Shown: positions 26,117-41,682 of the stretch, one piece after another | Layout of the letters: each line of letters begins with the position of its first letter | How positions within the stretch are numbered: the stretch's first letter is position 1 | NCBI RefSeq assembly: GCF_002831645.1 | Contig: NZ_CP025117.1 | Span: 3,673,001 to 3,737,000 of the forward strand | Length of the DNA stretch: 64,000 nt | Source: Olleya sp. Bg11-27 | Lineage (GTDB): Bacteria > Bacteroidota > Bacteroidia > Flavobacteriales > Flavobacteriaceae | Direction of reading: 5' to 3' | Translations under genes and position numbers: made by a program | The notes under the pieces: model-generated | The model's database searches: none | Told to the model about the DNA's origin: nothing | The model's input: only the letters and a program-made list of their open reading frames with translations

Positions 26117-26662
26117 ATGTCAGACAACGAAACCATTTTAATAAAGCAACTACAATCTGATAGAGATAAAAATGCTGCTTTTAAAACTCTAATAACACGC
26201 TATAAAGAGCGATTATATTGGCACATCAGACATATTGTAAAGTCTCACGACGATGCTGACGATGTTTTACAGAATACATTTATTAAAGTCTTTAAAAATA
26301 TCAGTAAATTTAAAGGAGACAGTCAATTATATTCTTGGATTTATAGAATTGCGACTAACGAAGCTTTAACCCATTTAAAAAGAAATTCAAAATTAAAAAA
26401 TATTAATAATGAAGAGGTTCAGGATCTATTAATTAATAATTTAGAATCTGATGTTTATTTTGAAGGAGAGGCTATTCAATTAAAATTACAAAAAGCAATA
26501 GCGACGCTTCCAGAAAAGCAACAATTAGTTTTTAATATGAAATATTTTCAGGACTTAAAATACAGTGAATTATCTGAAATATTAGAAACCAGCGAAGGTG
26601 CACTTAAAGCATCTTATCATATAGCCTCTAAAAAAATTGAAGCATATTTAAAAGCAAATTAA
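26117..26662 (+). CDS. ECF-type RNA polymerase sigma factor
   Basis: The 181-residue protein has sigma region 2 (HDDADDVLQNTFIKVF, FKGDSQLYSWIYRIATNEAL) and region 4 (TLPEKQQLVFNMKYFQDLKY, SELSEILETSEGALK), and lacks regions 1 and 3 as ECF factors do. It heads a three-gene set with a small membrane protein and a Spy-like periplasmic protein, probably its regulators. It is not closely similar to the second sigma factor at 39.7-40.3 kb. The ATG at 26117 is used; another ATG 4 bp upstream is out of frame. No copy of the 31-bp element described at 31-40 kb lies upstream. Confidence 0.92.
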   Translation: MSDNETILIKQLQSDRDKNAAFKTLITRYKERLYWHIRHIVKSHDDADDVLQNTFIKVFKNISKFKGDSQLYSWIYRIATNEALTHLKRNSKLKNINNEEVQDLLINNLESDVYFEGEAIQLKLQKAIATLPEKQQLVFNMKYFQDLKYSELSEILETSEGALKASYHIASKKIEAYLKAN

Positions 26663-26695
26663 ACCATTTAAGATTTTGATAGTCTTACTAGTACA

Positions 26696-27178
26696 ATGAA
26701 AAAAGAAAATCTAAATACAATTAATACTTCTGGATTTAAAGTCCCAAATGACTATTTTGAAGGATTAGAAGATGCTATTCTAACACAAGCACTATTAGAG
26801 ACGCACACTAAAGCTTCAGGTTTTAAAACTCCAGAAAATTACTTTGACACGCTCGATTCTGCTATCTTATCTAAAATAGATAAACCAGAACCAAAAGTAT
26901 TTAACCTATTTAGCAAAAAAACAATATTATCTATATCAAGTGCTGCTGCAGCAATCGTTTTATTATTTAATTTAAATTTATTTAAAACAACACCAACTTT
27001 AGACGCCTTAGATACGGTAACAGTAGAAAACTATATTTTAGATGAAATAGAGATTAATGATCTTAACTTATTAATTGGCGATTCTGAATTATCACAAACA
27101 GATTTTATTAATTATGATTTAATAGAAATCGATGACTATATAGACGATATAGACTTAAACGACTTATATCAAGACTAA
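26696..27178 (+). CDS. Single-pass membrane protein, probable sigma regulator, with duplicated motif
   Basis: The 160-residue protein has an N-terminal cytoplasmic part holding two copies of an 18-residue motif (residues 12-29 SGFKVPNDYFEGLEDAIL and 41-58 SGFKTPENYFDTLDSAIL), 29 residues apart. One membrane helix follows (about 75-95) and then an acidic C-terminal part rich in D, E and L. Its place right after the sigma gene suggests an anti-sigma function, but it has no recognisable zinc-binding anti-sigma domain. The duplicated motif could be the sigma-binding element. This is inference. Confidence 0.6.
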   Translation: MKKENLNTINTSGFKVPNDYFEGLEDAILTQALLETHTKASGFKTPENYFDTLDSAILSKIDKPEPKVFNLFSKKTILSISSAAAAIVLLFNLNLFKTTPTLDALDTVTVENYILDEIEINDLNLLIGDSELSQTDFINYDLIEIDDYIDDIDLNDLYQD

Positions 27179-27189
27179 AAAACAAAACA

Positions 27190-27636
27190 ATGAAGACACC
27201 TATAATAACATTACTTGTTTTACTCCTATCTTTTAGTGCTATTGCACAAAAAGACAGAGCAAAACAGCATGAAAAATTAAAAGCATTAAAAGTAGCCCAC
27301 ATAACAGAACAATTAAGTTTTACACCTAAAGAAGCTGAAGCCTTTTGGCCTATTTATAATAAGTTTGATGAAGAAAAACACATCTTACGAGATGTGTCTC
27401 AAGCTAAAAGAAACAATATTGATGTTAAGAAATTAACCGATAGTGAAGCTAAAGCTTTAATAAAAGACATGCAAGACTTGGAAGAAGCCAAAGTTAAGAG
27501 CTATAAAGTATATATAGACAAACTCTCCCAAATAATAAGTTATAAAAAAATAGTCTTATTATTTAATGCAGAACGCTCCTTTAAAAGAAAAATGATTGAA
27601 GAGTTTAGAGGTAGGCATAAAGACAATAAAAAATAA
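27190..27636 (+). CDS. Spy/CpxP-like periplasmic protein
   Basis: The 148-residue protein has a signal peptide (MKTPIITLLVLLLSFSAIAQ) and an all-helical mature part with LSFTPKEAEAFWPIYNKFDEE and a long charged helix, resembling the LTxxQ (Spy/CpxP) fold and the flavobacterial proteins annotated as sensors of ECF sigma factors. It begins 11 bp after the membrane protein gene. It probably senses envelope stress or chaperones periplasmic proteins for the sigma module. Confidence 0.65.
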   Translation: MKTPIITLLVLLLSFSAIAQKDRAKQHEKLKALKVAHITEQLSFTPKEAEAFWPIYNKFDEEKHILRDVSQAKRNNIDVKKLTDSEAKALIKDMQDLEEAKVKSYKVYIDKLSQIISYKKIVLLFNAERSFKRKMIEEFRGRHKDNKK

Positions 27637-31098: not shown

Positions 31099-31129
31099 AT
31101 TTAGATGCTGTATTATAAAATAACTTGCG
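31099..31129 (-). promoter_or_regulatory. ECF-type promoter, site A
   Basis: On the minus strand CGCAAGTT, 14 bp, CATCTAAAT. It is 27 bp upstream of the YHYH ATG at 31071. Four more copies with the same spacing lie at 36109, 38796, 39695 and 40331. Confidence 0.8.
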
Positions 31130-31141
31130 TTTTTTTATAAA

Positions 31142-32272
31142 TTAATTTCTTCCGCCTTGAGAAGGCTCTCTTCGCGGTCCTTGATCTCCAACTTTTGACG
31201 CTTTTTGCAACTCTTCTTTAGTAATAAAACCATTTGAATTGGCGTCTATTTTAGAAAAGTCTTCTTTTAAAGGCCCTTTAACTTCCTTTAATGAAAGTTT
31301 CCCATCCTTATTAGCATCCATTTGTTCTATTATTTGAGCTGAATCAGGACGATCACCTTGTCCGTTTGGTGGCCCTTGTTGTTCTGCTTCAACTTCCCCC
31401 ATAACGCAACGCCCAACATAAGGAAACTGGCTAGTCACTAAATACATATACTTGCCAGCTACAGTAATACCATTACACTCATCTAAATCTCCATAACCAG
31501 CGACATACTCGTAATCTGAGCCATATGTCCCGTCATGATGCCCTCCAACAGAAATATCCATATGTTGTTTTGGATTGTCATAAGTACAATCTTCTCCTGC
31601 TCTTGTCCCATCTAATAATTTAAAACTTGGTTTGTATTGTCCACTTTTAGAATAGTACATAGGAAAACCATCATGTGCAAATCCAATATGAACTAAATCT
31701 TGCCCACTATCAAATTTAGAAATCATTGATGTTGGTGTTCCATGATAATGATACGCTCCGGTAGGTTGTACGTGTGCATGGTTAAAATCTAAACCAAGAT
31801 CTATAACATCTTGAATAGCCTCGACACGATAATTTTCTCCTGTGTCACAAACAACGACCTCAGCAGTTTGAGGTTCAAATTTAATTCCGTTTAAAGCGAC
31901 TCCTGGCTCTCTCATCCATTGTGCTTTCCCTGTATACTTTGGTGTTACAGGAAATTCATAGGTGATGTCTTGCGATGCTATAATGTTAGGATTTCCAGGA
32001 TTTGGAAAGGTTCCCGTTTCATGGTTTGGTAATGAGTTAGTCACCATAACACGTGTATCCCCAACAACTGTTACTTTAGTTTTTGTTCCAAAAGCACTAT
32101 CCTCTAGATCGTAACTTCCGTAATAATCATCTATTGTTTCAACACCGGGCTCTACATCATGCGAATGCTCTTCTGAACCATCATGACTATGAGTTGTTGA
32201 CTTTTTTTGACTATTACATCCAAACAAAAAGCCTATAGCTATGCCTGCTAATATTTTAAATATAGTTTTCAT
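31142..32272 (-). CDS. YHYH domain lipoprotein with C-terminal EF-hand pair
   Basis: The 376-residue lipoprotein (lipobox GFLFGC) has a histidine-rich linker after the lipid site (THSHDGSEEHSHD). Its YHYH domain includes GAYHYHGTP, HIGFAHDGFPMYY, VGGHHDG and LDECNGITV. Residues about 320-365 hold two EF-hands (DANKDGKLSLKE and DANSNGFITKEE) separated by KGPLKEDFSKID. The EF pair closely resembles the stand-alone EF-hand protein at 38.5 kb. It probably binds calcium. It is the last gene of the transcript from site B, and site A lies immediately after it. Confidence 0.85.
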   Translation of the reverse strand: MKTIFKILAGIAIGFLFGCNSQKKSTTHSHDGSEEHSHDVEPGVETIDDYYGSYDLEDSAFGTKTKVTVVGDTRVMVTNSLPNHETGTFPNPGNPNIIASQDITYEFPVTPKYTGKAQWMREPGVALNGIKFEPQTAEVVVCDTGENYRVEAIQDVIDLGLDFNHAHVQPTGAYHYHGTPTSMISKFDSGQDLVHIGFAHDGFPMYYSKSGQYKPSFKLLDGTRAGEDCTYDNPKQHMDISVGGHHDGTYGSDYEYVAGYGDLDECNGITVAGKYMYLVTSQFPYVGRCVMGEVEAEQQGPPNGQGDRPDSAQIIEQMDANKDGKLSLKEVKGPLKEDFSKIDANSNGFITKEELQKASKVGDQGPRREPSQGGRN

Positions 32273-32295
32273 CTGTTAGTTTCAATTAATTAAAA

Positions 32296-32820
32296 TTAGT
32301 CCTTGTTTTTACGTTTAGGTTTGTCCTGATTACTATAAAATACTTTTAGCTCCTCTAAGTCAAGTTCACCATCACTATTAGTATCTATCTTACTAAAATT
32401 GTCCATTAAATCTAGTTTCTTTTCTACAGCAACTTCTAACTCGTTTAATGTTCCGTCTCCATTATCGTCGACTTCTTTAAGTATTTTTTTAGCTGAAATC
32501 TTTTTAGGTTTTCTAGTATCCAATGACGCTTTAAGTTCATCTAAATCTATGACACCATCTTCATTAGCATCAATAACATCAAAATCCTCCGCTATTTTTC
32601 CTCTTTTATCATTTGCTGCTTCGTCTTTGTCTATAACCTCATCTTTATTTGTGTCTAATTTGGAAAGGATCTCCGATGCATCCGGTTTACTACCTCGATC
32701 TTGGCCTTTTCCGCCACCTCTTCCGCCTTGACCACCGCCACCCGGAGGTCCTTGAGCAAATACGCTAAAACACAATAGCATAGAAAAGACTGTAAGTACT
32801 GTTTTAAGATTGTTTTTCAT
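32296..32820 (-). CDS. Secreted EF-hand protein with four calcium loops
   Basis: The 174-residue protein has a signal peptide, a glycine-rich linker (GGGGQGGRGGGKGQ), and four EF-hand loops: DTNKDEVIDKDE, DANEDGVIDLDE, DDNGDGTLNELE and DTNSDGELDLEE. All keep acidic residues at positions 1 and 12, as expected for calcium binding. The tail is basic. It overlaps the upstream gene by 17 bp and lies 23 bp before the YHYH/EF gene, so the three are cotranscribed. Confidence 0.88.
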   Translation of the reverse strand: MKNNLKTVLTVFSMLLCFSVFAQGPPGGGGQGGRGGGKGQDRGSKPDASEILSKLDTNKDEVIDKDEAANDKRGKIAEDFDVIDANEDGVIDLDELKASLDTRKPKKISAKKILKEVDDNGDGTLNELEVAVEKKLDLMDNFSKIDTNSDGELDLEELKVFYSNQDKPKRKNKD

Positions 32821-33421
32821 TTTGGTTTGATTTTTTTATATAATTATTTGTAACGATTACTACCGGAATCAGAAAAAGAACAAACAGATAACTTTTATTA
32901 ATTTTTTCCTTTTTTAATACCGCTTTATTATCACTAAATTCTAGTGCTACTTTATAGTTATTTTCTTTATTTAAAATAACTCTGCTTGTTTTATTATCTA
33001 TAACAATTGAAAACACCGATTGATGCTCATTATTTTCTTTAAAAGCGTCAATCTGCACATCCAAAGTATTGATGTGTTTAGGAAAAAGATCTATAATAAA
33101 TTTCAAATCAGTTTCATGGTTTCCTAATTTTATCCCGCCTTCTAAAAGCTTAATTGTAACCCCATTTACAATTAAATTAAAATTATCTTTTATATACCCA
33201 ATTGCTTTTTGTTTATAATCCGTTGCTGATAGTGTTTCCAGATTTAAATCACTAAAATGTTTTTTTAAAGCTTCATTTAAACCGTTTTGACTTAAACTGA
33301 TATTTAATATATTAATATCTTGGTTCACCTCTAAATAATACATTGCTGACAATGGATTATGCGCCTTAACCGCTGTAACCACGGTGAATAATATTAGCAG
33401 TATAATGGTCTTTTTTTTCAT
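32804..33421 (-). CDS. Membrane-anchored envelope protein, paralogue 2 (DUF6702-like)
   Basis: The 205-residue protein has a signal peptide (MKKKTIILLILFTVVTAVKA) whose likely cleavage leaves a mature N-terminus HNPLSAMYYLEV. A beta-rich region follows (QNGLNEALKKHF; NFNLIVNGVTIKLLEGGIKLGNHET), then a C-terminal membrane helix (about 178-195). Layout and motifs match the gene at 34.4-35.0 kb. The family resembles DUF6702; the function is unknown. An exposed N-terminal histidine could bind copper, in keeping with the Sco gene in the locus, but that is inference. Confidence 0.6.
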   Translation of the reverse strand: MKKKTIILLILFTVVTAVKAHNPLSAMYYLEVNQDINILNISLSQNGLNEALKKHFSDLNLETLSATDYKQKAIGYIKDNFNLIVNGVTIKLLEGGIKLGNHETDLKFIIDLFPKHINTLDVQIDAFKENNEHQSVFSIVIDNKTSRVILNKENNYKVALEFSDNKAVLKKEKINKSYLFVLFLIPVVIVTNNYIKKSNQNEKQS

Positions 33422-33424
33422 AAT

Positions 33425-34405
33425 TTATTGGAATGAAAAACTATTAACCGCTGCGACACCTTTTAAACATTTTGGTACATTAGGCGCGTCTGTTGTACTT
33501 GCTACATAATGATAAACACCATCAGGATATTCTGTAGTACTTGCAGTAATACCACCACACTCATCTAAATCAGAAGGTTCTACTTGATAAGCATAAATTG
33601 GAAATCCGTCTTTAGCAAAACCTATTAACTGACTTCCTGACACTTGGTTAATTAATGTACAAGCAACATCATCTATACCGTTAGCTTCTAAAACTTGATT
33701 CATTACTTCTGGCACAAAATGCCAATGGTAATAACCTGCAGGATCATGATGACCACCACAAGGATCTAAAGAAGGAATATTACCACCAGAGATCCCAGGA
33801 ACACCGGGACCATTAACTACAGATGGTGGATCTCCATTAATTGGCACGCCATCTAAAGACAAACCAACCAATTCTACCGTATCAATCACATTGTTACTTG
33901 ATGCTAAAACTGGCGTCGCTGGAATTAAAAAAGTTAGCAATAAATTATTATTAGGAGCAGCTTCTAAACAATACGCAAAATCTGGATTTGTAGCTCCAGA
34001 ATTGAAATCATCGATATGTATATCGCCATTATCATCCACAATATCATAGCCATCAGCTTCCATTGCATTAAACAAACTAGCTTTCATGACTTGAAATCCC
34101 GCATTTGTCGCGCCGTCATAAATCCCTAATCCTCCAACATCATCAATAGTTGTTGGACAGTATGGACCATTTTCTACCGGATTACTGGTAAACACTAATT
34201 GATAACAGTCCCCTTGCGAGCCATCTTCCAATGTACAATCGACTTTCTCATAGGACACCATTGATGTCGCATTAAAAAAAGATTCTTGGATTATATCGTC
34301 ACTTTGATCTCCTGCACCTATACTATCACTATCATCACTGCTACAGCTAATAAAAGAAAATACAACCGATACTATTAATCCAAAAATTAGAGTTTTATTT
34401 TTCAT
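33425..34405 (-). CDS. YHYH domain lipoprotein
   Basis: The 326-residue lipoprotein (lipobox FISC) has an acidic linker and a YHYH domain. In the first site one tyrosine is replaced (GYYHWHFVPE), and the second is GVYHYVAST. The supporting motifs GLSLDGVPING, GGHHDPAG, QLIGFAKDGFPIYAY and LDECGGITA match the other family members. It overlaps the upstream membrane-anchored gene by 11 bp and is separated from the next by 3 bp, a tight operon. Confidence 0.83.
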   Translation of the reverse strand: MKNKTLIFGLIVSVVFSFISCSSDDSDSIGAGDQSDDIIQESFFNATSMVSYEKVDCTLEDGSQGDCYQLVFTSNPVENGPYCPTTIDDVGGLGIYDGATNAGFQVMKASLFNAMEADGYDIVDDNGDIHIDDFNSGATNPDFAYCLEAAPNNNLLLTFLIPATPVLASSNNVIDTVELVGLSLDGVPINGDPPSVVNGPGVPGISGGNIPSLDPCGGHHDPAGYYHWHFVPEVMNQVLEANGIDDVACTLINQVSGSQLIGFAKDGFPIYAYQVEPSDLDECGGITASTTEYPDGVYHYVASTTDAPNVPKCLKGVAAVNSFSFQ

Positions 34406-35012
34406 ATTGTATTTTTTTTGAGATTACTGCTTTTAATAAAAACCCTAAACCTAAAACCATTAATAAAGCAGCAAGTATTAAAGGAGAAAAGAAGCTAGCT
34501 TCATTTACTGTAACTACAACAAACTTGTTATCCTTACTTGTTAACTTTAGTCTATGATTATTTTTTTTATTTAAAACGAAATGTTCTTTATTAAAGCCAT
34601 CTTTTAACAGGACTAAAGCACTTTTATTATTATAAATATCTTTAAATGCTGTGTTTTGAACAGAAACAGTCTTTATAACTGAAGGCACTCCAAGTATTTC
34701 ATAAACCACTTTTGTTTCATGCCCTAATTTGACAATACCCTTACTAAGTGTAATGTTTTGGTTATCGTTAAATGTAATTACCAAATTATTTTTAATGTGT
34801 TCTAAGACCATTTCCTGAAATTCTTCTGGAGTTTTATATTCAGGAAAATGTGTTCTGACTTCTTTTTGAAATGCTGTTAAAGACGCACTAATTTGTAGTA
34901 CCCAAACGTTATTTTCGTTTTGAACCAACATAGTCGTAGAAACTTCTGGCTGATGCGCTTTCGCTGAAACACCAATCAGTAAAAAAAGAATTAATATAAA
35001 TTTATTTAGCAT
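34395..35012 (-). CDS. Membrane-anchored envelope protein, paralogue 1 (DUF6702-like)
   Basis: The 205-residue protein has a signal peptide (MLNKFILILFLLIGVSAKA) with likely cleavage before HQPEVSTTMLV, an internal LTAFQKEVRTHFPEY and SKGIVKLGHETKVVYE, and a C-terminal membrane helix (about 172-192) with a short basic tail. It shares its layout and the mature A-H-x-P start with the protein at 32.8-33.4 kb. Each of the two is followed by a different partner gene (a YHYH gene here, an EF-hand gene there), so the operon may have grown by block duplication. Confidence 0.6.
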   Translation of the reverse strand: MLNKFILILFLLIGVSAKAHQPEVSTTMLVQNENNVWVLQISASLTAFQKEVRTHFPEYKTPEEFQEMVLEHIKNNLVITFNDNQNITLSKGIVKLGHETKVVYEILGVPSVIKTVSVQNTAFKDIYNNKSALVLLKDGFNKEHFVLNKKNNHRLKLTSKDNKFVVVTVNEASFFSPLILAALLMVLGLGFLLKAVISKKIQYEK

Positions 35013-35042
35013 AATTATATGTTTTAACTCAAAGCGTTGAAA

Positions 35043-36065
35043 CTATTCGCTTACGGCGTAAGCTCCTTTTAACCCATTGATAAAATTATTATTACCAGCT
35101 TCATCTACATGATAATGGTATCCTCTAGTATCATCTGTATGACCTCTTAACTCGTCTAAATCCGAAGGTAAGTTACCAGCTTCATCTTCTAACTCAAAAA
35201 TACCATGACCATCTAAAGCATAACCTATTAAAGCAGAATGACCATCGTCTTGCACTATTTTAGTACTAAACCCTGTAGCTGCATGATAGTGATATCCTTG
35301 ATTTACGTTAATATGTCCACCTGCATCATCAAAAGGTGCTAATGTATATGCTGCAAGAATATTATCTGTAGGTGCCGGTGCAGAAAACTCTATACCATTT
35401 AATGCTAGCCCACGTGTTGATGGGACTTCGTCTACAGGTTCTCCACCAGGTCCTCCTGCGCCGCCTGCTGTAGCAAATAGTACCGCTTCATCTTGAAGTA
35501 CTGGAGTAATAGGTATTAACCATGTTTGCGTTAAATCCGCGATGTAAGACGGAAGACACTCTACACAAAAATTTGCATACTCCTCGCCTACATTTGGATT
35601 TGCTGCATTAATACAATCATCTTCTGTTGCTGTGATATAAACATCTCCATTGGCATCATACATCATCCAATTATCGTCATTATAAAAAGTGGCAAGGTTT
35701 TCTATAAAAGCACCATCGACATCGTAAACAGTCCCACCTTCTAACCAAATCCCACCATTGTCTGCGGTATCACTTATATTATCCGGACACCAAGGCCCCA
35801 TGGCATGATCTGAAGGCACACTACTAGTTACAATTTGATAACAATCTGTTATTGTACCATCTGATAATGTACAAGGCACTGTAGTAATAGTAACAGAACC
35901 ACTATCTGTAGTAAAGTAAGTTGCATCCACTGTCACCACCTGAGAATCTGTATCTGTATCTGTATCTGTTGCACTAGTATTATCATCGCTACTGCAAGAA
36001 ATAAAACTGATAACAATTACTATTAGAGCAGAGATTAAAGCCCCCTTAATTAATGTATTTTTCAT
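35043..36065 (-). CDS. YHYH domain lipoprotein
   Basis: The 340-residue lipoprotein (lipobox FISC) has a TDTDTDTD linker and a YHYH domain with GLALNGIEF, QGYHYHAATG, LIGYALDGHGIFEL, LDELRGHTDD and RGYHYHVDEAG. Both histidine sites are intact. It heads the transcript running to 31142. A copy of the 31-bp element lies 43 bp upstream of its ATG. Confidence 0.85.
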   Translation of the reverse strand: MKNTLIKGALISALIVIVISFISCSSDDNTSATDTDTDTDSQVVTVDATYFTTDSGSVTITTVPCTLSDGTITDCYQIVTSSVPSDHAMGPWCPDNISDTADNGGIWLEGGTVYDVDGAFIENLATFYNDDNWMMYDANGDVYITATEDDCINAANPNVGEEYANFCVECLPSYIADLTQTWLIPITPVLQDEAVLFATAGGAGGPGGEPVDEVPSTRGLALNGIEFSAPAPTDNILAAYTLAPFDDAGGHINVNQGYHYHAATGFSTKIVQDDGHSALIGYALDGHGIFELEDEAGNLPSDLDELRGHTDDTRGYHYHVDEAGNNNFINGLKGAYAVSE

Positions 36066-36108
36066 GCTATTTATTACTTTTAAATTGTTTTTATTAAATT
36101 GAATTACT

Positions 36109-36139
36109 ATTTAGATGACTTATCTAAACAAAACTTGCG
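36109..36139 (-). promoter_or_regulatory. ECF-type promoter, site B
   Basis: On the minus strand CGCAAGTT, 14 bp, CATCTAAAT, upstream of the YHYH gene starting at 36065. It would drive the six-gene run down to 31142. Confidence 0.8.
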
Positions 36140-36158
36140 CTTGTAAAGCACTTTATCT

Positions 36159-36908
36159 TTAATTATCTATCTCCTTATTTAGTTTATAAGACATCGTCTG
36201 CGTTTTTACTCTTAAAATCTTACTATTTAATAGTTGGTTTTCTGTTTGCAAAAGCCTATCTACCAAAGCATTTTGATAGGCTCGACTATTTAAAAGATCC
36301 ATATAATTAGAGGTTCTAGTAAACGTTTTAGTTTTTTTATAACTTAAACCTCGCTCCGATATAATATCTATTAAGGATATGTGAGATTCGATAGCTGGTT
36401 GTAAGCGATTAATAATTATGTTTTCGATTTTATTTTCTTGACTTTCAAAACTATCAAGCTCATTTGGATAGGAAGCAATTAGATCTTTTAATAAAACACT
36501 TTCTATAAACTCAAATTTATTAGTACTATTAATCGAGTTTACTGCCCCATTATGAAGTTGAGTTGGTTTATAATTAACTTCTAGAATACCTTTTTTAATT
36601 TTATCCGTTAATTGTTCTTTCTCTAAACCAATACTTTTAATAGTCTGATTAATATTTTTTACATCTAAGGTGTATCTATCAATCGACGAGTCTAAAAGTG
36701 TCAAATTAGCATCTAATTCTTCATTTAAGGTTTGGTATATTTTTAGTTCTACAATCCTGTTTTTTCTTATTTCATTCATACTATTAATCTTCCACGCTAT
36801 TAATATCCCAATAACAATTAATAGTATCTCTCCCAAAGCATACACCATATAGCTTTTTATTTTTCCTGAGAAGACTAATGAAAGTCTAATTTTCCTGAAT
36901 ACTTTCAT
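36159..36908 (-). CDS. DUF6090-like membrane protein with coiled-coil
   Basis: The 249-residue protein starts with a basic amphipathic segment (MKVFRKIRLSLVF), one membrane helix (about 22-40, MVYALGEILLIVIGILIAWK), then INSMNEIRKNR and a long helical, coiled-coil-like part. This is the plan of the DUF6090 family common in Flavobacteriia. Its role is unknown. It lies between a hairpin and site B and has no copy of the 31-bp element upstream, so it may not belong to the regulon. Confidence 0.65.
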   Translation of the reverse strand: MKVFRKIRLSLVFSGKIKSYMVYALGEILLIVIGILIAWKINSMNEIRKNRIVELKIYQTLNEELDANLTLLDSSIDRYTLDVKNINQTIKSIGLEKEQLTDKIKKGILEVNYKPTQLHNGAVNSINSTNKFEFIESVLLKDLIASYPNELDSFESQENKIENIIINRLQPAIESHISLIDIISERGLSYKKTKTFTRTSNYMDLLNSRAYQNALVDRLLQTENQLLNSKILRVKTQTMSYKLNKEIDN

Positions 36909-36953
36909 TATTATTTATGTTTTAAAAGTTCAAAATTCATCCTATTTAAAGAG

Positions 36954-36990
36954 AAAAGGCCTCATGAGTTTTACCTCATGAAGCCTTTAA
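36954..36990 (-). terminator. Terminator after the CotH-like gene
   Basis: Arms AAAGGCCTCATGAG and CTCATGAAGCCTTT pair with one mismatch around a short loop. On the minus strand TTTTCTCTTT follows. It should end the EF-hand/CotH transcript. Confidence 0.65.
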
Positions 36991-37022
36991 CTACCAATCA
37001 ACCAAAACTTATCATTCTATAT

Positions 37023-38453
37023 TTAATCTAAATAATCACTCACTGCTGCAGCACGCGTTGTAACGTGTGTATTCAACTCGTTAACTGCATTTTGAAAGTC
37101 TGAACTATTTTCTAAAAAGCTATATCCTGAAACTTCCGATGTTGCATAAGGCTCAATTAAAGCTGCATAAGTTCCATATTGAGATTGCATTGTACTGACA
37201 CTAAAAGCATCATCCACCACTTCTTGTACATATGTATCATATTGCGTTTTATATACTACATCTTGATATAAATAGCCAATTAATGGCCATTCTGAACTAT
37301 TTAATCCAGAAAAGTCTAATGGTAACGACCCTCCCATTTTTCCTAACTCTAAGGCTTCATTATTATCCCAAGGAATCCATGTTAATTTACTCGTATCAGG
37401 ATTATTATATAAAAAATAATTATGTGTCATTCTACCATACGTATCCCAATTTTGAACCACTGTATTTACTGCTAAGTATTTTAAAAACACATCCGTATCT
37501 AATACAGCATCAAGGTTTGTTCTCCAAGTCTCAGGATCCGATGTTCTAGATCCATCATTTACGATAGCTAACAAACTAGCCACATCATTAAAATCACCTT
37601 CATCTTCGTTTGTTTTTTTAACGTATTCACTTTCATTATAAGATCCCAATGCAAAACTAGCGGCATCACCATCTGGCTTGTATAAATTACCATCGTCATC
37701 AGAAAACTGTGTATCTAAAACCGTATCATCCACTTCTTCTACCATAGTGTACACTCCAAAATACTGTGGTCCATCTCCATGATCCACATACACTGTATAA
37801 AATGCGGTATGTGATGCTACTAACCCTGCATTTCTAAAAACATCTGTAGCTACTTTTTCGCGTAACATAGACTTGTCATCAAAATTATTTTTAAGACTTA
37901 ATTTTTTGAAGCCATAAAAACGTTGGTTATCTATTTGTGGATAATCATCTTCAAACTCGTCAAAATCTAATTTAAGAGATAGTTTCAAAATCCCATTTTG
38001 CCAACTCGTTTGCAAGCTAGAATTCCCTTTAAATCTAACACCTACGCGATACCATTCTTTACCATTATAAAATACTTCTGCAGGTACAAAAATTGGATCT
38101 TCATCAGTTTCGGTTAAGCCGCCACCTCCACCTCCAGCTCCAAATGCTCCGTAAAGATTTGTCATATCATCCAGCATACTTTGCCAGCGTGCTTCTGTAA
38201 CAACAATATCCAATCGCTTGACTGCATTATCTTCAAAAACTTCATCAAAATTGGGATCCGCATCTTTACTATGCGTTTCTGCTGTCCAATCTGGAGTTTC
38301 AAAATCAGAATCGTCAGTATCTACAACCACTTCACCTTCTTCTGTTGTTGTTACGACATCATCATCGTTATTACAAGAACTAAAGGTTACTAACGTTATA
38401 CTAAATACTACTGCGACTACTAATAGATTTAATTTGCTTTTTATGTATTTCAT
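37023..38453 (-). CDS. CotH-like kinase family lipoprotein
   Basis: The 476-residue lipoprotein (lipobox TFSSC) matches the CotH family, which includes atypical protein kinases first known from spore coats. Typical stretches are RVGVRFKGNSSLQ, FYGFKKLSLKNNFDD, LREKVATDVFRNAGL, YFGVYTMVEEVDD, HNYFLYNN and TWIPWDNNEAL, where CotH proteins carry the PWD metal-binding motif. A glycine run (GAGGGGGG) occurs near residue 115. If active it would phosphorylate extracytoplasmic proteins, with EF-hand or YHYH neighbours as possible substrates (inference). It starts 32 bp after the EF-hand gene. Confidence 0.85.
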   Translation of the reverse strand: MKYIKSKLNLLVVAVVFSITLVTFSSCNNDDDVVTTTEEGEVVVDTDDSDFETPDWTAETHSKDADPNFDEVFEDNAVKRLDIVVTEARWQSMLDDMTNLYGAFGAGGGGGGLTETDEDPIFVPAEVFYNGKEWYRVGVRFKGNSSLQTSWQNGILKLSLKLDFDEFEDDYPQIDNQRFYGFKKLSLKNNFDDKSMLREKVATDVFRNAGLVASHTAFYTVYVDHGDGPQYFGVYTMVEEVDDTVLDTQFSDDDGNLYKPDGDAASFALGSYNESEYVKKTNEDEGDFNDVASLLAIVNDGSRTSDPETWRTNLDAVLDTDVFLKYLAVNTVVQNWDTYGRMTHNYFLYNNPDTSKLTWIPWDNNEALELGKMGGSLPLDFSGLNSSEWPLIGYLYQDVVYKTQYDTYVQEVVDDAFSVSTMQSQYGTYAALIEPYATSEVSGYSFLENSSDFQNAVNELNTHVTTRAAAVSDYLD

Positions 38454-38485
38454 ATTGTCTTTGGTTTAATGGTTATAATAAAAAA

Positions 38486-38770
38486 TTAGTTACGTGATTT
38501 TCTTTCTGGTTTAGGCGCTTTTTTAAATTCGGCTTCAGAAATAAACCCATCCTCATCTGTATCAATTTTATCAAAATCATTCTTTAAAGGTCCTTTGATT
38601 TCTGATTTAGATAATTTACCATCCTCGTCCTTATCCATTTCTTCTAATAACTGGCTAAATGTTGGCGGTTCTTTTTTCTGTCTATCATTAGATTGTGCGT
38701 TAATACTATTTACACTTAAAACTGTTACTCCAAAAACTAAAACGGCTGTACTGAATATGTTCTTTTTCAT
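38486..38770 (-). CDS. Small secreted EF-hand protein
   Basis: The 94-residue protein has a signal peptide ending near SINAQS and two EF-hand loops (DKDEDGKLSKSE and DTDEDGFISEAE) separated by IKGPLKNDFDKID. That linker is nearly the same as in the C-terminal module of the YHYH protein at 31.1-32.3 kb, so the two modules are paralogous. A copy of the 31-bp element lies 25 bp upstream. The CotH-like gene follows on the same transcript. Confidence 0.87.
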   Translation of the reverse strand: MKKNIFSTAVLVFGVTVLSVNSINAQSNDRQKKEPPTFSQLLEEMDKDEDGKLSKSEIKGPLKNDFDKIDTDEDGFISEAEFKKAPKPERKSRN

Positions 38771-38795
38771 ATCTAAATAATTTATTTGTTATGGT

Positions 38796-38826
38796 ATTTA
38801 GATGTCTAGTTTTAAAATAACTTGTG
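38796..38826 (-). promoter_or_regulatory. ECF-type promoter, site C
   Basis: On the minus strand CACAAGTT, 14 bp, CATCTAAAT; one base differs from the other four copies. It is 25 bp upstream of the EF-hand ATG and would drive the EF-hand and CotH-like genes. Confidence 0.78.
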
Positions 38827-38849
38827 CTTAGTTATGTTAAACAAAACAC

Positions 38850-38886
38850 AAAAAAAAGACCTTCATTTTACTGAAGGTCTTTTAAT
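38850..38886 (-). terminator. Terminator after the CpxP-like gene
   Basis: The stem AAAAGACCTTCA / TGAAGGTCTTTT is followed on the minus strand by eight T residues. It closes the sigma/anti-sigma/CpxP-like transcript just before site C. Confidence 0.85.
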
Positions 38887-38906
38887 AATTATTTTAATGT
38901 TGCACT

Positions 38907-39368
38907 TTATTCTGGTCTTCCTGGATGTTCTGGACCAGGCATATCAAATCGTCGTGCTTTTTTTATAATACTTTTAAACTGCTCTTTTTGAGTATCATCG
39001 CACAACTGATAAATACCTCTTAGTCTTTTAAATAATTCATTTTCCTTTAAAATAACTTTACCAGCTATAGATGTCGTTAAATTATTTATGTCCTGTTGAT
39101 TTACAGAGTCAGCGGTGATATTATTAAACAGTTGATCTTTTAATGATCTAATTTCATCTCCTACAGCGCGCATCTTCGCATGATGCTTAGCTTCTAAACG
39201 TTTAAACTGTTCTAACTGTGTGTCATTAAACTTTAATTCTGTAGCAATAAAATTACCCGACTCCTTTGGTCCATTCTGACCAGGACGTCCTATATAATTG
39301 AATAGAAAAAAACCATTCATTATAATTAAAACAATTAATAAGAGATATAAAACTGTATTTTTTTTCAT
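38907..39368 (-). CDS. CpxP/Spy-like membrane-anchored periplasmic sensor
   Basis: The 153-residue protein has an N-terminal membrane anchor (about residues 5-26) and a helical periplasmic part: LKFNDTQLEQFKRLEAKHHA, MRAVGDEIRSLKDQLF, and LCDDTQKEQFKSIIKKARRF. The repeated D-T-Q-x-E-Q-F fits the LTxxQ-type signature of Spy/CpxP/heavy-metal-sensor proteins. It starts 2 bp after the anti-sigma stop. It probably senses the signal that frees the sigma factor. Confidence 0.75.
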   Translation of the reverse strand: MKKNTVLYLLLIVLIIMNGFFLFNYIGRPGQNGPKESGNFIATELKFNDTQLEQFKRLEAKHHAKMRAVGDEIRSLKDQLFNNITADSVNQQDINNLTTSIAGKVILKENELFKRLRGIYQLCDDTQKEQFKSIIKKARRFDMPGPEHPGRPE

Positions 39369-39370
39369 GA

Positions 39371-39685
39371 TTATAAATTGATTAATGAGCCGTCCGTATC
39401 TGAGTTTAACCCGTAATCTGAGGCAAAACTAGAAATAGCTTCATTATATTTTGTACTTTTTATTTGTTGTATTGCATATACATTTAACACAACTACGCAA
39501 ACCAATGTTGCTAACTGTAATTGTGGCGTAAACCAACTCCATGTCTTAGATACTACTTCTTTTTGTGTAAATAAGCGTTGCATTGTTTTGTCTTTAAAAA
39601 AAGGAGAGACAGTAACGGCATTGATATTTTCAGAAGCATTAAGAGTCTGATCTATTTTATCTTGTATGTTTGTATTTGTTTTCAT
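39371..39685 (-). CDS. Probable anti-sigma factor, single-pass membrane protein
   Basis: The 104-residue protein has a cytoplasmic N-terminal part (about 1-65), one membrane helix (LQLATLVCVVVLNVYAI, about 70-86) and a short periplasmic tail. Its place between sigma and CpxP-like genes is that of an anti-sigma factor; no known anti-sigma domain is obvious. The open frame reaches a TTG at 39715, but that would start inside the promoter element of site D, so the ATG at 39685 is chosen. It lies only 9 bp after the -10 box, so its own mRNA would be almost leaderless. Confidence 0.65.
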   Translation of the reverse strand: MKTNTNIQDKIDQTLNASENINAVTVSPFFKDKTMQRLFTQKEVVSKTWSWFTPQLQLATLVCVVVLNVYAIQQIKSTKYNEAISSFASDYGLNSDTDGSLINL

Positions 39686-39694
39686 AATTCTTAG

Positions 39695-39725
39695 TTTTAG
39701 ATGTTTTATTTTCAAAAAACTTGCG
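39695..39725 (-). promoter_or_regulatory. ECF-type promoter, site D
   Basis: On the minus strand CGCAAGTT, 14 bp, CATCTAAAA. It fills almost the whole 41-bp gap between the sigma and anti-sigma genes, so the anti-sigma gene gets a promoter of its own. Confidence 0.75.
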
Positions 39726-39726
39726 T

Positions 39727-40305
39727 CTAATTATGGTTTTTATAAAATTCTTTTAAAATAATTTGTAAATTCTTTTTAGCTCTAAACAATAAAGACTCTA
39801 TGGAACCGATACTCTTTTTTGTTATTTCACTTATTTCTTTATAACTTTTATCATCAATTTTATTTAATGTAAAAACAATACGCTGTGCTTTTGGCAGTTT
39901 ATTAATGGCTAAAAATAGTGTTTCACTAGTTTCTTTTTGCTCCATGACTAATCCAGGATGATTAATCTCTGTAAAATAGCTGGCTTTATCTAAGTTATAA
40001 TCGTTTCCTGATAGCGATTGTAAAAAGGCAAAACGCTTCTTAGCTTTTCCTTTCCTGATAAACTCTAAACATTTATTGGTTGCTATTCTATAAATCCAAG
40101 TAGACAATTTAGACTGTCCTTTAAATTTATTTATAGAATTAAAAACCTCCACAAACACCTCCTGCGCAATGTCTTCTGCATCCTGTTTATTGGGCACAAA
40201 TGACAAGCACGTCCCAAACACCTTTTGTTGGAAATCGTCCAAAAGCTTACCATAAGCAGCACTGGTTTGGTTTTTAAGTTGTTCTATAAATTCAGTTTCG
40301 GTCAA
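39727..40305 (-). CDS. ECF-type RNA polymerase sigma factor, probable master of the locus
   Basis: The 192-residue protein has sigma region 2 (QDAEDIAQEVFVEVFNSINK, STWIYRIATNKCLEF) and region 4 (INKLPKAQRIVFTLNKIDDK, SYKEISEITKKSIGSIESLL). The start is a TTG giving MTETEFIEQLKN, the N-terminus expected for this family. The frame has a stop four codons upstream and no in-frame ATG before region 2, so the weak start codon seems real. A copy of the 31-bp element lies 25 bp upstream, consistent with autoregulation. Confidence 0.92.
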   Translation of the reverse strand: MTETEFIEQLKNQTSAAYGKLLDDFQQKVFGTCLSFVPNKQDAEDIAQEVFVEVFNSINKFKGQSKLSTWIYRIATNKCLEFIRKGKAKKRFAFLQSLSGNDYNLDKASYFTEINHPGLVMEQKETSETLFLAINKLPKAQRIVFTLNKIDDKSYKEISEITKKSIGSIESLLFRAKKNLQIILKEFYKNHN

Positions 40306-40330
40306 AAAAAGTAATTATTGTGTTAACAAT

Positions 40331-40361
40331 ATTTAGATGCATTAGTTAAAAAAAACTTGCG
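40331..40361 (-). promoter_or_regulatory. ECF-type promoter, site E (autoregulatory)
   Basis: On the minus strand CGCAAGTT, 14 bp, CATCTAAAT. It is 25 bp upstream of the sigma gene's TTG start and points away from the divergent rsmB gene. Confidence 0.8.
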
Positions 40362-40470
40362 TTTATTTTTAAAATATTTTTTCAAAAGGTAAAACTATAT
40401 ATCTTAATACAAAAAAGCATCAAAAATTAGTGTTATTTAAGTAACTTTGCACGTTATTAAATACAAAAAA

Positions 40471-41682
40471 ATGCGCTTACACAAAAATTTATGCTTTGCA
40501 ACAGTTGATGGTTTATTATTAATCTTTAACGAAGGTCATTATGCTGATAAAGTTGTACAACAATTACTTAAACGTGACAAACGTTGGGGAAGTCGTGACA
40601 GAGGTTTTGTTGCCGAAACGACTTACGATATAGTACGTTGGAAACGTCTTTATGCAGAAATTGCTGAAGTAAAAGAACCATTTAACAGAGACGAAATCTG
40701 GCGTATGTTTGCGGTTTGGGCTACTTTAAAAGGAATTACACTTCCAGACTGGAAGTATTTTGAAAATACACCAACAAGAAAAATTAAAGGTCGTTTTGAC
40801 GAGTTATCTAAAACTAGAAAGATTAAAGAATCTTTTCCAGATTGGATGGATGCGTTAGCCGAAAAAGAATTAGGTGATAAAGTTTGGTCTAAAGAAGCAA
40901 CTGCTTTAAACCAACAAGCTGATGTTGTCCTAAGAGTAAACACTCTTAAAACCACTAAAGAGAAATTAAAAGAAGAATTATTCGATTTAGATATTGAAAC
41001 TGAAGAAGTACCAAAGCATGTTAATGCTTTAAAACTTGTTGAGCGTGCCAATGTATTTACAACGGACATGTTTCAAAAAGGACATTTTGAAGTTCAAGAT
41101 GGATCGTCGCAATTGGTCGCTGAATATTTAGAGGTAGAACCAGGAATGCGTGTTGTGGACACTTGTGCTGGTGCTGGAGGTAAAACACTACACCTTGCAT
41201 CCATAATGGAAAATAAAGGTCAAATTATAGCTTTAGATATCTACGCTAATAAATTAAAAGAACTAAAGCGTCGTGCAAAAAGAGCTGGCGCGCATAATAT
41301 CGAGCCAAGACATATTGACTCTACAAAGGTTATCAAAAAATTATACGATCAAGCGGATCGTGTATTAATTGATGCGCCCTGTTCTGGATTAGGTGTTTTA
41401 AGACGTAACCCTGATGCGAAATGGAAAATGCAACCTGAATTTATTGAAAAAATCAAGGAAACACAAGCTGAAATTTTAAATAGCTACTCTAGAATGGTTA
41501 AATCTGGAGGAAAACTAGTGTATGCAACATGCTCTATCTTACCTTCTGAAAACCAAGAACAAGTCGCTAAATTCTTAGCTTCAGAAAACGGAAAAGAATT
41601 TTCTTTAGTAAAAGATAAGAAAATTTTATCGCATCAATCTGGCTTCGATGGTTTTTATATGGCTTTATTAGAAAGAAAATAA
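40471..41682 (+). CDS. rsmB: 16S rRNA cytosine-C5 methyltransferase
   Basis: The 403-residue RsmB/NSUN-type enzyme methylates a cytosine in 16S rRNA. An N-terminal NusB-like helical region (DKRWGSRDRGFVAETTYDIV) precedes the Rossmann methyltransferase domain: VVDTCAGAGGKTLHLA for motif I, the catalytic-loop DAPCSGLGVLRRNPDAKW, and YATCSILPSENQEQV with the second cysteine. The frame reaches a TTG at 40447, but the ATG at 40471 is chosen. A TAACTTTG box at 40442-40449 fits a house-keeping -7 element. It is divergent from the sigma locus. Confidence 0.9.
   Translation: MRLHKNLCFATVDGLLLIFNEGHYADKVVQQLLKRDKRWGSRDRGFVAETTYDIVRWKRLYAEIAEVKEPFNRDEIWRMFAVWATLKGITLPDWKYFENTPTRKIKGRFDELSKTRKIKESFPDWMDALAEKELGDKVWSKEATALNQQADVVLRVNTLKTTKEKLKEELFDLDIETEEVPKHVNALKLVERANVFTTDMFQKGHFEVQDGSSQLVAEYLEVEPGMRVVDTCAGAGGKTLHLASIMENKGQIIALDIYANKLKELKRRAKRAGAHNIEPRHIDSTKVIKKLYDQADRVLIDAPCSGLGVLRRNPDAKWKMQPEFIEKIKETQAEILNSYSRMVKSGGKLVYATCSILPSENQEQVAKFLASENGKEFSLVKDKKILSHQSGFDGFYMALLERK

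Follow-up and report, generated by a model that had tools for sequence, protein, structure and literature searches.

Among the closest described counterparts of the locus reported here is CnrYXH of Cupriavidus metallidurans, in which an extracytoplasmic function (ECF) sigma factor (CnrH), a small anti-sigma factor (CnrY) and a periplasmic sensor (CnrX) are encoded together. CnrY binds the sigma factor through a cytoplasmic N-terminus and has a single membrane helix; ligand-bound CnrX frees CnrH from it, and the system controls the resistance-nodulation-division (RND) metal efflux pump cnrCBA. We analysed a stretch of 64,000 nucleotides of the genome of Olleya sp. Bg11-27 (Flavobacteriaceae; NZ_CP025117.1, positions 3,673,001 to 3,737,000), referred to below as the window, in which five copies of a 31-bp element lie before minus-strand genes, among them the gene of an ECF sigma factor (39727-40305) and that of a predicted anti-sigma factor. 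Comparison across the family indicates that this element is very probably the promoter of that sigma factor, which would use it to read its regulon. Regulons of ECF sigma factors are a known kind, and the control set of this one resembles CnrYXH.

Other reports bear on parts of this system. A survey of Bacteroidetes describes the binding of CnrY and states that class I anti-sigma factors adjoin only 6% of the ECF factors, leaving control open (PMC7406223). The Dma/Das system (ECF21) of Bacteroides likewise joins a Bacteroidota ECF sigma factor to a non-classical anti-sigma factor, but Dma spans both membranes and has a C-terminal barrel, whereas the locus described here encodes an anti-sigma candidate of about 104 amino acids (aa) and a separate sensor (PMC13088901). 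ECF sigma genes also stand beside MbnP/MbnH pairs in the methanobactin-type loci with MbnI/MbnR; in those loci the sensor is FecR-like and is accompanied by a TonB-dependent receptor, in contrast to the Spy/CnrX-like sensor found here (PMC3621798). In the open-licence literature, outside which most subscription papers lie, we found no earlier description of the element, the target set or the control logic, no paper on an ECF sigma factor promoter motif in Flavobacteriaceae, and none joining YHYH with CotH proteins, or MbnP with a sigma factor in Bacteroidetes.

The element follows the pattern CGCAAGTT-N14-CATCTAAAT, with CGCAAGTT on the −35 side and CATCTAAAT on the −10 side. As proposed in a preliminary description of the window, its five copies lie on the minus strand with identical spacing (N14); those at 31099, 36109 and 40331 have no mismatch, and those at 38796 and 39695 have one each. 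The next start codon is 27, 43, 25, 9 and 25 bp away for the copies at 31099, 36109, 38796, 39695 and 40331, respectively, which reproduces the range of 9-43 bp given in that description. Shuffling the window 100 times with dinucleotides preserved never gave five copies (mean 0.27, largest 3), and spacers of 11-18 other than 14 gave no match at up to 3 mismatches. A weight matrix built from 133 sites of other genera, with the own genus left out (sites with at most 1 mismatch and at most 80 bp from a start), assigned 31-39 bits to the five copies and 5.3 bits to the best other place in the window, in agreement with the earlier impression that it holds no further clear copy. In the whole genome (4.31 Mb), 6 matches were obtained at up to 2 mismatches and 1 in a control with the pattern read backwards. 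At up to 3 mismatches, the 16 matches were close to the control frequency (15), and the ten extra matches were therefore dropped as noise. The sixth genomic copy (G000:C1:3792307-3792337) lies 55 kb past the window. The genes that follow it encode, in this order, a protein of 118 aa without a known family, MbnP (PF20243, 9e-45), a di-haem protein of CCP/MauG type (MbnH-like; PF03150, 8e-51) and a 328-aa protein.

A survey of the family covered 397 genomes (237 genera sampled) and used the core CRCAAGTT-N14-CATCTAAA with no mismatch allowed. This exact core gave 117 sites in 40 of the 397 genomes (28 of the 237 genera), and the reversed control gave 1. Orthologues of the sigma factor were identified by profile in 48 genomes (E-value of 4e-94 or better; next match, 2e-51); five weaker matches with E-values from 2e-51 to 2e-43 (G076, G122, G287, G364, G375) were counted as sigma-negative. 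All 40 element-bearing genomes belong to the 48 sigma-positive ones, and the element is present in 0 of the 349 sigma-negative genomes (Fisher p = 3e-47, the genomes not being independent). Of the genomes that belong to the window's genus, G000 and G346 carry the sigma factor together with the element, and G171 carries neither. A looser survey pattern, with up to 2 mismatches, matched at least 113 of 199 genomes, many of them sigma-negative, and was judged non-specific; singletons that it returned (L066, L068, L069, L071, L072, L074-L077, L079) were taken as chance or unproven.

The gene of the 265-aa YHYH protein (YHYH265) has orthologues in 86 of the 397 genomes. Among the best 30 of these 86 loci, the element was found within 500 bp upstream, at up to 2 mismatches, in 17 of 18 sigma-positive loci, four of these sites being 386-415 bp upstream and probably placed before a preceding EF-hand gene. 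In contrast, it was found in none of the 12 sigma-negative loci, even at up to 4 mismatches (L291, L295, L296, L298, L302, L303, L305, L308, L309, L311, L315, L316), which suggests that another regulator may serve YHYH265 in those genomes. In G171 the sigma factor, the element and the YHYH265 protein are all absent together.

These results support the assignment of CAAGTT(TTT) as a −35 box and of TCTAAA, within GCATCTAAA, as a −10 box, with a 16-bp spacer between them. The co-occurrence also supports the proposal that the regulon is read by the sigma factor of the cluster, and this regulon appears to reach the MbnP operon beyond the window. We favour an ECF promoter because the element tracks the sigma orthologue, is lost before YHYH265 where the sigma factor is missing, has a fitting position and orientation, and has counterparts with CGTC or TGTC cores in distant relatives. 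Near-identical short copies within 9 kb could also be the mark of a dispersed repeat or mobile element. The probability of this is negligible, since spacer and flanks vary among the five copies, the copies precede gene starts in the orientation of the genes, and the exact core is spread over 28 genera.

All 117 exact sites were inspected with their neighbouring open reading frames (ORFs). Related genomes keep the motif before orthologues, a check suggested in the preliminary description, and a small number of recurring gene families follows most of the sites: the next gene encodes the anti-sigma candidate at 31 sites, YHYH265 at 20, the 94-aa EF-hand protein (EF94) at 18, the sigma factor at 15, YHYH340 at 6, CCP/MauG at 5, CotH at 4, and VTC, EF174 and sulfatase proteins at 3 each, while YHYH_EF, YHYH326, p420, BNR and small118 (of the MbnP operon) follow one site each. 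The remaining 4 sites precede a short, probably spurious frame before the YHYH265 operon (L049, L050), a CotH gene (L179) and a gene for a Cthe_2159 protein (L172). The VTC-domain gene follows the element in some genera, and in L047:5121-8809 and L252:9770-13322 it is followed in turn by DUF4956, DUF2490 and CotH genes. According to the ORF calls, a same-strand start lies within 400 bp downstream of all 117 sites, within 60 bp of 103 and within 34 bp of 95; a single site falls inside an ORF of at least 130 aa, an over-extended YHYH340 frame. When sites were counted per gene in the fetched clusters of the 48 sigma-positive genomes (up to 2 mismatches, up to 250 bp upstream), we observed that first genes of runs carry the element (EF94 22/28, YHYH340 6/6, YHYH265 29/39, VTC 4/4), that CotH and sulfatase genes do so in a minority only (4/21 and 2/10), and that internal genes almost never do (MORN 0/40, sensor 1/46; unassigned frames 6/649). 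Sequence statistics show the element itself, where it lies and how it is oriented, and that it goes with the sigma orthologue and with these gene families.

A 31-bp box that is asymmetric, well conserved and found before numerous operons could also be the operator of an ordinary activator or repressor beside housekeeping promoters. This is very improbable. The box ends within 34 bp of the start at 95 of the 117 sites, so that room is lacking for a full downstream housekeeping promoter, and TAnnTTTG, the consensus of the housekeeping −7 box, is not clearly enriched downstream of it (6 of 117 sites against 3.5 expected). Furthermore, the consensus over 139 sites, each with at most 1 mismatch and at most 80 bp from a start, consists of RCRCAAGTTTTT, an A/T-rich spacer and GCATCTAAA; the two blocks are always 14 bases apart, the spacer itself being poorly conserved, and the presence of the element follows the sigma gene. 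The operator reading was rejected, as was the mobile repeat.

The distribution of sites around the sigma gene points to a conserved feedback design. A site precedes the anti-sigma gene in 46 of the 48 sigma-positive genomes (45 by script; G335, where the start is over-extended, was added), and the sigma gene in 19. The preliminary description had called the regulon self-regulated; this holds in so far as both genes carry the element here, but a promoter of the sigma gene itself is found in only 19 of 48 genomes, against 46 for that of the anti-sigma and sensor genes. A set of 50 named loci of close orthologues, from genera such as Olleya, Lacinutrix, Psychroserpens, Winogradskyella, Polaribacter, Kordia, Maribacter and Flagellimonas, gave a similar picture: a site with N14 was detected by script between the sigma and anti-sigma genes in 49, the fiftieth (L206) likewise has one, and 16 of the 50 have a site before the sigma gene. 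The site after the sigma gene begins 0-2 bp past the stop codon in 44 of 49 named loci. At the 31 exact sites before the anti-sigma gene, its start lies 8-10 bp from the −10 box in 16, 3-5 bp in 4 and 15-25 bp in 11; with 3-10 bp, the anti-sigma message would be nearly leaderless in those species. Since the anti-sigma site is near-universal and the sigma site partial, the constant design appears to be that the sigma factor drives its own inhibitor and sensor, with self-drive as an addition in some species, Olleya sp. Bg11-27 included. In L206:8001-8573 (Lacinutrix venerupis) the sigma frame stops after about 18 codons from the match start, and the promoter sites are present.

A different ECF factor might read the promoter, for example the one encoded at 26117-26662, given that a second ECF gene occurs in the fetched cluster of 32 of the 48 sigma-positive genomes. 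We consider this highly unlikely, because the element precedes none of these 32 genes, is confined to genomes with an orthologue of the first sigma factor, and nearly always adjoins the stop codon of that sigma gene. In the window, the second ECF gene and two small genes that follow it (26117-27636, plus strand) are convergent to the cluster.

The sigma factor of the cluster matched Pfam models of regions 2 and 4 only, with no region 3 model, which fits the ECF (group 4) sigma factors. Its best matches in the PDB are of the RpoE/SigW type (E. coli sigma-E, 6.5e-22; SigW, 1.3e-21), with which it shares promoters of two boxes with 16 bp between them; it differs in the A at −11 (CATC) of its sites, where many relatives have CGTC or TGTC, and no anti-sigma model of the RseA type was matched at the locus. 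More distant sigma relatives, 41-51% identical, were studied at 28 loci of other Bacteroidota and of one Ignavibacteriota, with L234 and L252 left out as close orthologues. At most of these loci an anti-sigma or sensor homologue adjoins the sigma gene, although not every one was detected at each. The pattern GCAAGT (1 mismatch)-N14-17-[CT][AG]TC was found just after the sigma stop codon in 11 of the 28 loci, against 0.12 expected, with the cores TGTC in 7, CGTC in 2 and CATC in 2. CGTC and TGTC at the same place bear out the ECF-type −10 core suggested earlier.

The base at −11 and residue 81 of the sigma factor tend to vary together. A regular expression found the core in 64 of 79 loci and none in 15. 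Among the 55 loci whose sigma factor has E81, the core was found in 52, and it is CATC in all 52; the other states were N with TGTC (7) or CGTC (1), D with CGTC (2) or CATC (1), and G with TATC (1). The spacing of W70, Y72, I74, N77, L80 and E81 equals that of W81, Y83, I85, N88, I91 and N92 of Mycobacterium tuberculosis sigma-H, and residue 81 was equated with N92 on this basis. In that protein, N92 contacts base pair −11 (PMC6411747). On a tree of 36 rows, for which the −10 bases were partly read by eye and the core of L254 and L256 was taken from upstream of sigma, the E state requires at least 3 changes but offers only 3 independent contrasts, which weakens the case and places significance out of reach; A at −11 also persists in 3 of 20 non-E sigmas. 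The covariation is therefore suggestive. In the clade with N81, of which 2 of the 8 members were tested (L247:8683-9138, 4.7e-5; L260:8621-9064, 2e-10), the gene that follows sigma has a zf-HC2 zinc finger, as opposed to the short anti-sigma candidate here, and the sigma family seems to have switched its type of anti-sigma factor.

Genes and promoter copies of the cluster in the window (window coordinates)
Feature	Coordinates	Strand	Evidence
Promoter copy 1, before sigma gene	40331..40361	-	-35 CGCAAGTT 40354-40361, -10 CATCTAAAT 40331-40339; matrix score 38.7
ECF sigma factor, 192 aa, TTG start at 40305	39727..40305	-	Pfam Sigma70_r2 3.6e-17, Sigma70_r4_2 3.9e-15; TIGR02937 sigma70-ECF 94.8 bits (cut-off 42.9)
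Promoter copy 2, directly after sigma gene, 9 bp before anti-sigma ATG (message predicted to be almost leaderless)	39695..39725	-	1 mismatch
Anti-sigma candidate, 104 aa, with a single segment judged hydrophobic by eye	39371..39685	-	Partner conserved in 16 relatives (31-58% identity)
Predicted membrane-anchored periplasmic sensor, Spy/CpxP/CnrX-like, 153 aa	38907..39368	-	LTXXQ, Metal_resist just under cut-offs; Spy profile match 4.4e-4
Promoter copy 3	38796..38826	-	1 mismatch
Small EF-hand protein, 94 aa, probably secreted	38486..38770	-	PF13202 3e-10
CotH kinase-family protein, 476 aa	37023..38453	-	PF08757 1e-72
249-aa protein, family without Pfam match, probably same transcript as EF-hand/CotH	36159..36908	-	Pfam search
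Promoter copy 4	36109..36139	-	0 mismatches
YHYH protein, 340 aa, first of six-gene run	35043..36065	-	PF14240 7.4e-9
205-aa protein, no Pfam match	34395..35012	-	Pfam search
YHYH protein, 326 aa	33425..34405	-	PF14240 9e-24
Second 205-aa protein, no Pfam match	32804..33421	-	Pfam search
EF-hand protein, 174 aa	32296..32820	-	PF13202 2.3e-15
YHYH protein with C-terminal EF-hands, 376 aa	31142..32272	-	PF14240 3.3e-53, PF13202 3.9e-11
Promoter copy 5	31099..31129	-	0 mismatches
YHYH protein, 265 aa	30274..31071	-	PF14240 4.6e-8; two invariant YHYH motifs in 37 aligned rows
MORN_2-repeat protein, run of YHYH 265 aa	29636..30262	-	PF07661 1e-9
SCO1/SenC protein, run of YHYH 265 aa	28971..29639	-	PF02630 1.9e-24

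The copies of the element mark off five runs among the genes of the minus strand: the sigma gene; anti-sigma and sensor; EF-hand, CotH and the 249-aa protein; six genes of YHYH and EF-hand type; and YHYH, MORN and SCO1. A structure model of the YHYH protein, from 37 sequences, reached a mean predicted local distance difference test (pLDDT) of 42.8, and for this reason neither a fold nor a metal site is claimed for YHYH. An rRNA methyltransferase gene of the RsmB/F type (PF01189, 4.9e-47; 40447-41682, plus strand) is divergent from the sigma gene; counterparts of this neighbour (Up404) occur in 35 of the 48 clusters, and the element precedes none of them.

The two genes after the sigma gene are the candidates for its control. 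The anti-sigma label given in the preliminary description fits the synteny, the size and the single hydrophobic stretch, but is not backed by a family match. The model of the predicted sensor (pLDDT 82) has an N-terminal helix (4-25) followed by four helices, and Foldseek placed CpxP and Spy first, with ZraP and CnrX also among the matches (TM-score of 0.69-0.84 for the CnrX target). Over 45 rows, H62 (93%), M66 (77%) and C123 (95%) are conserved and are possible metal ligands. A distant counterpart of the sensor, in L240, passes the Metal_resist cut-off (1.7e-14). At that locus (L240:7072-8555) the element is followed by the anti-sigma, sensor and sigma genes, the order of CnrY-X-H.

Regarding the signal, MbnP genes, with families assigned by Pfam, lie inside the sigma-sensor gene run in L236 (MbnP, di-haem, YHYH), L245 (YHYH, MbnP, di-haem) and L248 (MbnP, where the contig ends), and the run of L254 holds MbnP, a multicopper oxidase, a redoxin, a di-haem protein and YHYH. 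MbnP is present in 33 of the 48 sigma-positive genomes (42 matches). Among the 30 of these 42 that were fetched, 5 loci have a site with 1-3 mismatches to a slightly longer pattern, placed 9-54 bp ahead of the gene that opens the MbnP operon (G000, G346, G335, G168 and, directly before MbnP, G188). According to PMC3621798, a somewhat similar pair, CorA/CorB (with MopE), is copper-down-regulated in methanotrophs, and for close MbnP homologues no data tying them to copper are mentioned as of 2013. The presence of MbnP in sigma-sensor runs, the sites before MbnP operons and the SCO1 gene in the YHYH run are the reasons why copper is favoured. That the signal is a metal is a tentative assignment, which we hold at somewhat less than even; copper specifically is a guess, and a less probable one.

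Envelope or protein-folding stress, perceived through a Spy/CpxP-like chaperone, stays a serious rival to a metal signal and has an appreciable though minority chance; the regulon would then be a cell-surface stress response and not metal handling. The sensor profile is nearest to Spy, the Foldseek ranking is headed by CpxP and Spy, many of the targets resemble lipoproteins or secreted proteins, and we know of no copper role for CotH and EF-hand proteins. On the other hand, the runs repeatedly contain MbnP, MbnH-like cytochromes, SCO1 and a multicopper oxidase, the sensor keeps H62, M66 and C123, its predicted fold is shared by CnrX, and the L240 sensor exceeds the Metal_resist cut-off.

If the ECF promoter reading is correct, polymerase with this sigma factor would transcribe the anti-sigma and sensor genes, providing a conserved negative feedback, and in Olleya sp. 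Bg11-27 it would also transcribe the sigma gene itself, a positive feedback. The same sigma factor would drive the EF-hand/CotH, YHYH/EF-hand and YHYH-MORN-SCO1 runs and the MbnP/MbnH-like operon 55 kb beyond the window. We infer that the protein encoded at 39371-39685 would act as the anti-sigma factor of the sigma factor that reads the element, and that the sensor would bind a periplasmic ligand. In the resting state the sensor would be bound to the anti-sigma factor; the ligand, perhaps a transition metal such as copper, which is a guess, would change the sensor and free the sigma factor, in the manner of CnrX acting on CnrY and CnrH. This last step, the freeing of sigma by ligand binding, is the least certain.

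Compared with CnrYXH, the gene set and the helical arrangement of the sensor are alike, whereas the usual order here is sigma, anti-sigma, sensor, CnrH is a weak relative of the sigma factor (1.8e-6), the anti-sigma candidate has no sequence match to CnrY, and the targets are YHYH, CotH, EF-hand and MbnP genes. Judged by eye, the size and the single hydrophobic stretch of the anti-sigma candidate would suit a protein of the CnrY type. No RND pump was identified among the first genes after the 117 exact sites; the largest gene in the five runs encodes 476 aa, and those of the MbnP operon at most 360 aa. Because neither an efflux target nor anti-sigma kinship was detected, the system is taken to work like CnrYXH and is not filed as a member of it.

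Several further observations weigh against the proposed system as a whole. The exact site is absent from 8 of the 48 sigma-positive genomes. The anti-sigma candidate matched no Pfam or NCBIfam model, the class I (RseA/zinc) models included, and its profile found neither CnrY nor another sigma regulator in the PDB. The Foldseek search with the sensor gave no E-value below 0.001 (0.06-0.4 for CnrX), so that the likeness to CnrX holds at the fold level only. The site before the MbnP operon is absent from 25 of the 30 fetched MbnP loci, a match in L263 inside the di-haem gene being chance-like, which indicates that MbnP belongs to the regulon in some genomes only. Moreover, we know of no tie to copper for the EF-hand, CotH, sulfatase and VTC targets.

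The sigma factor, the element, the likely anti-sigma factor, the sensor and the targets were recovered from sequence alone across 48 genomes. The broadest interpretation, which we regard as possible but doubtful, is a Bacteroidota-wide metal-responsive ECF system (most likely for copper) with a new short anti-sigma factor, a Spy/CnrX-like sensor and an MbnP/MbnH-YHYH-SCO1-CotH-EF-hand surface set, in which the YHYH proteins would form a novel class that binds metal outside the cell and E81 would be a natural G-to-A specificity change at −11. Through the link between base −11 and residue 81, the ECF promoter code could be tested directly on a small scale. To our knowledge, the roles of YHYH, CotH, small EF-hand proteins and MbnP/MbnH in these bacteria are largely unknown. 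With this regulon, YHYH (PF14240), CotH, small EF-hand and MbnP/MbnH proteins would gain a common regulator, and the inducer, once found, would make their functions testable.

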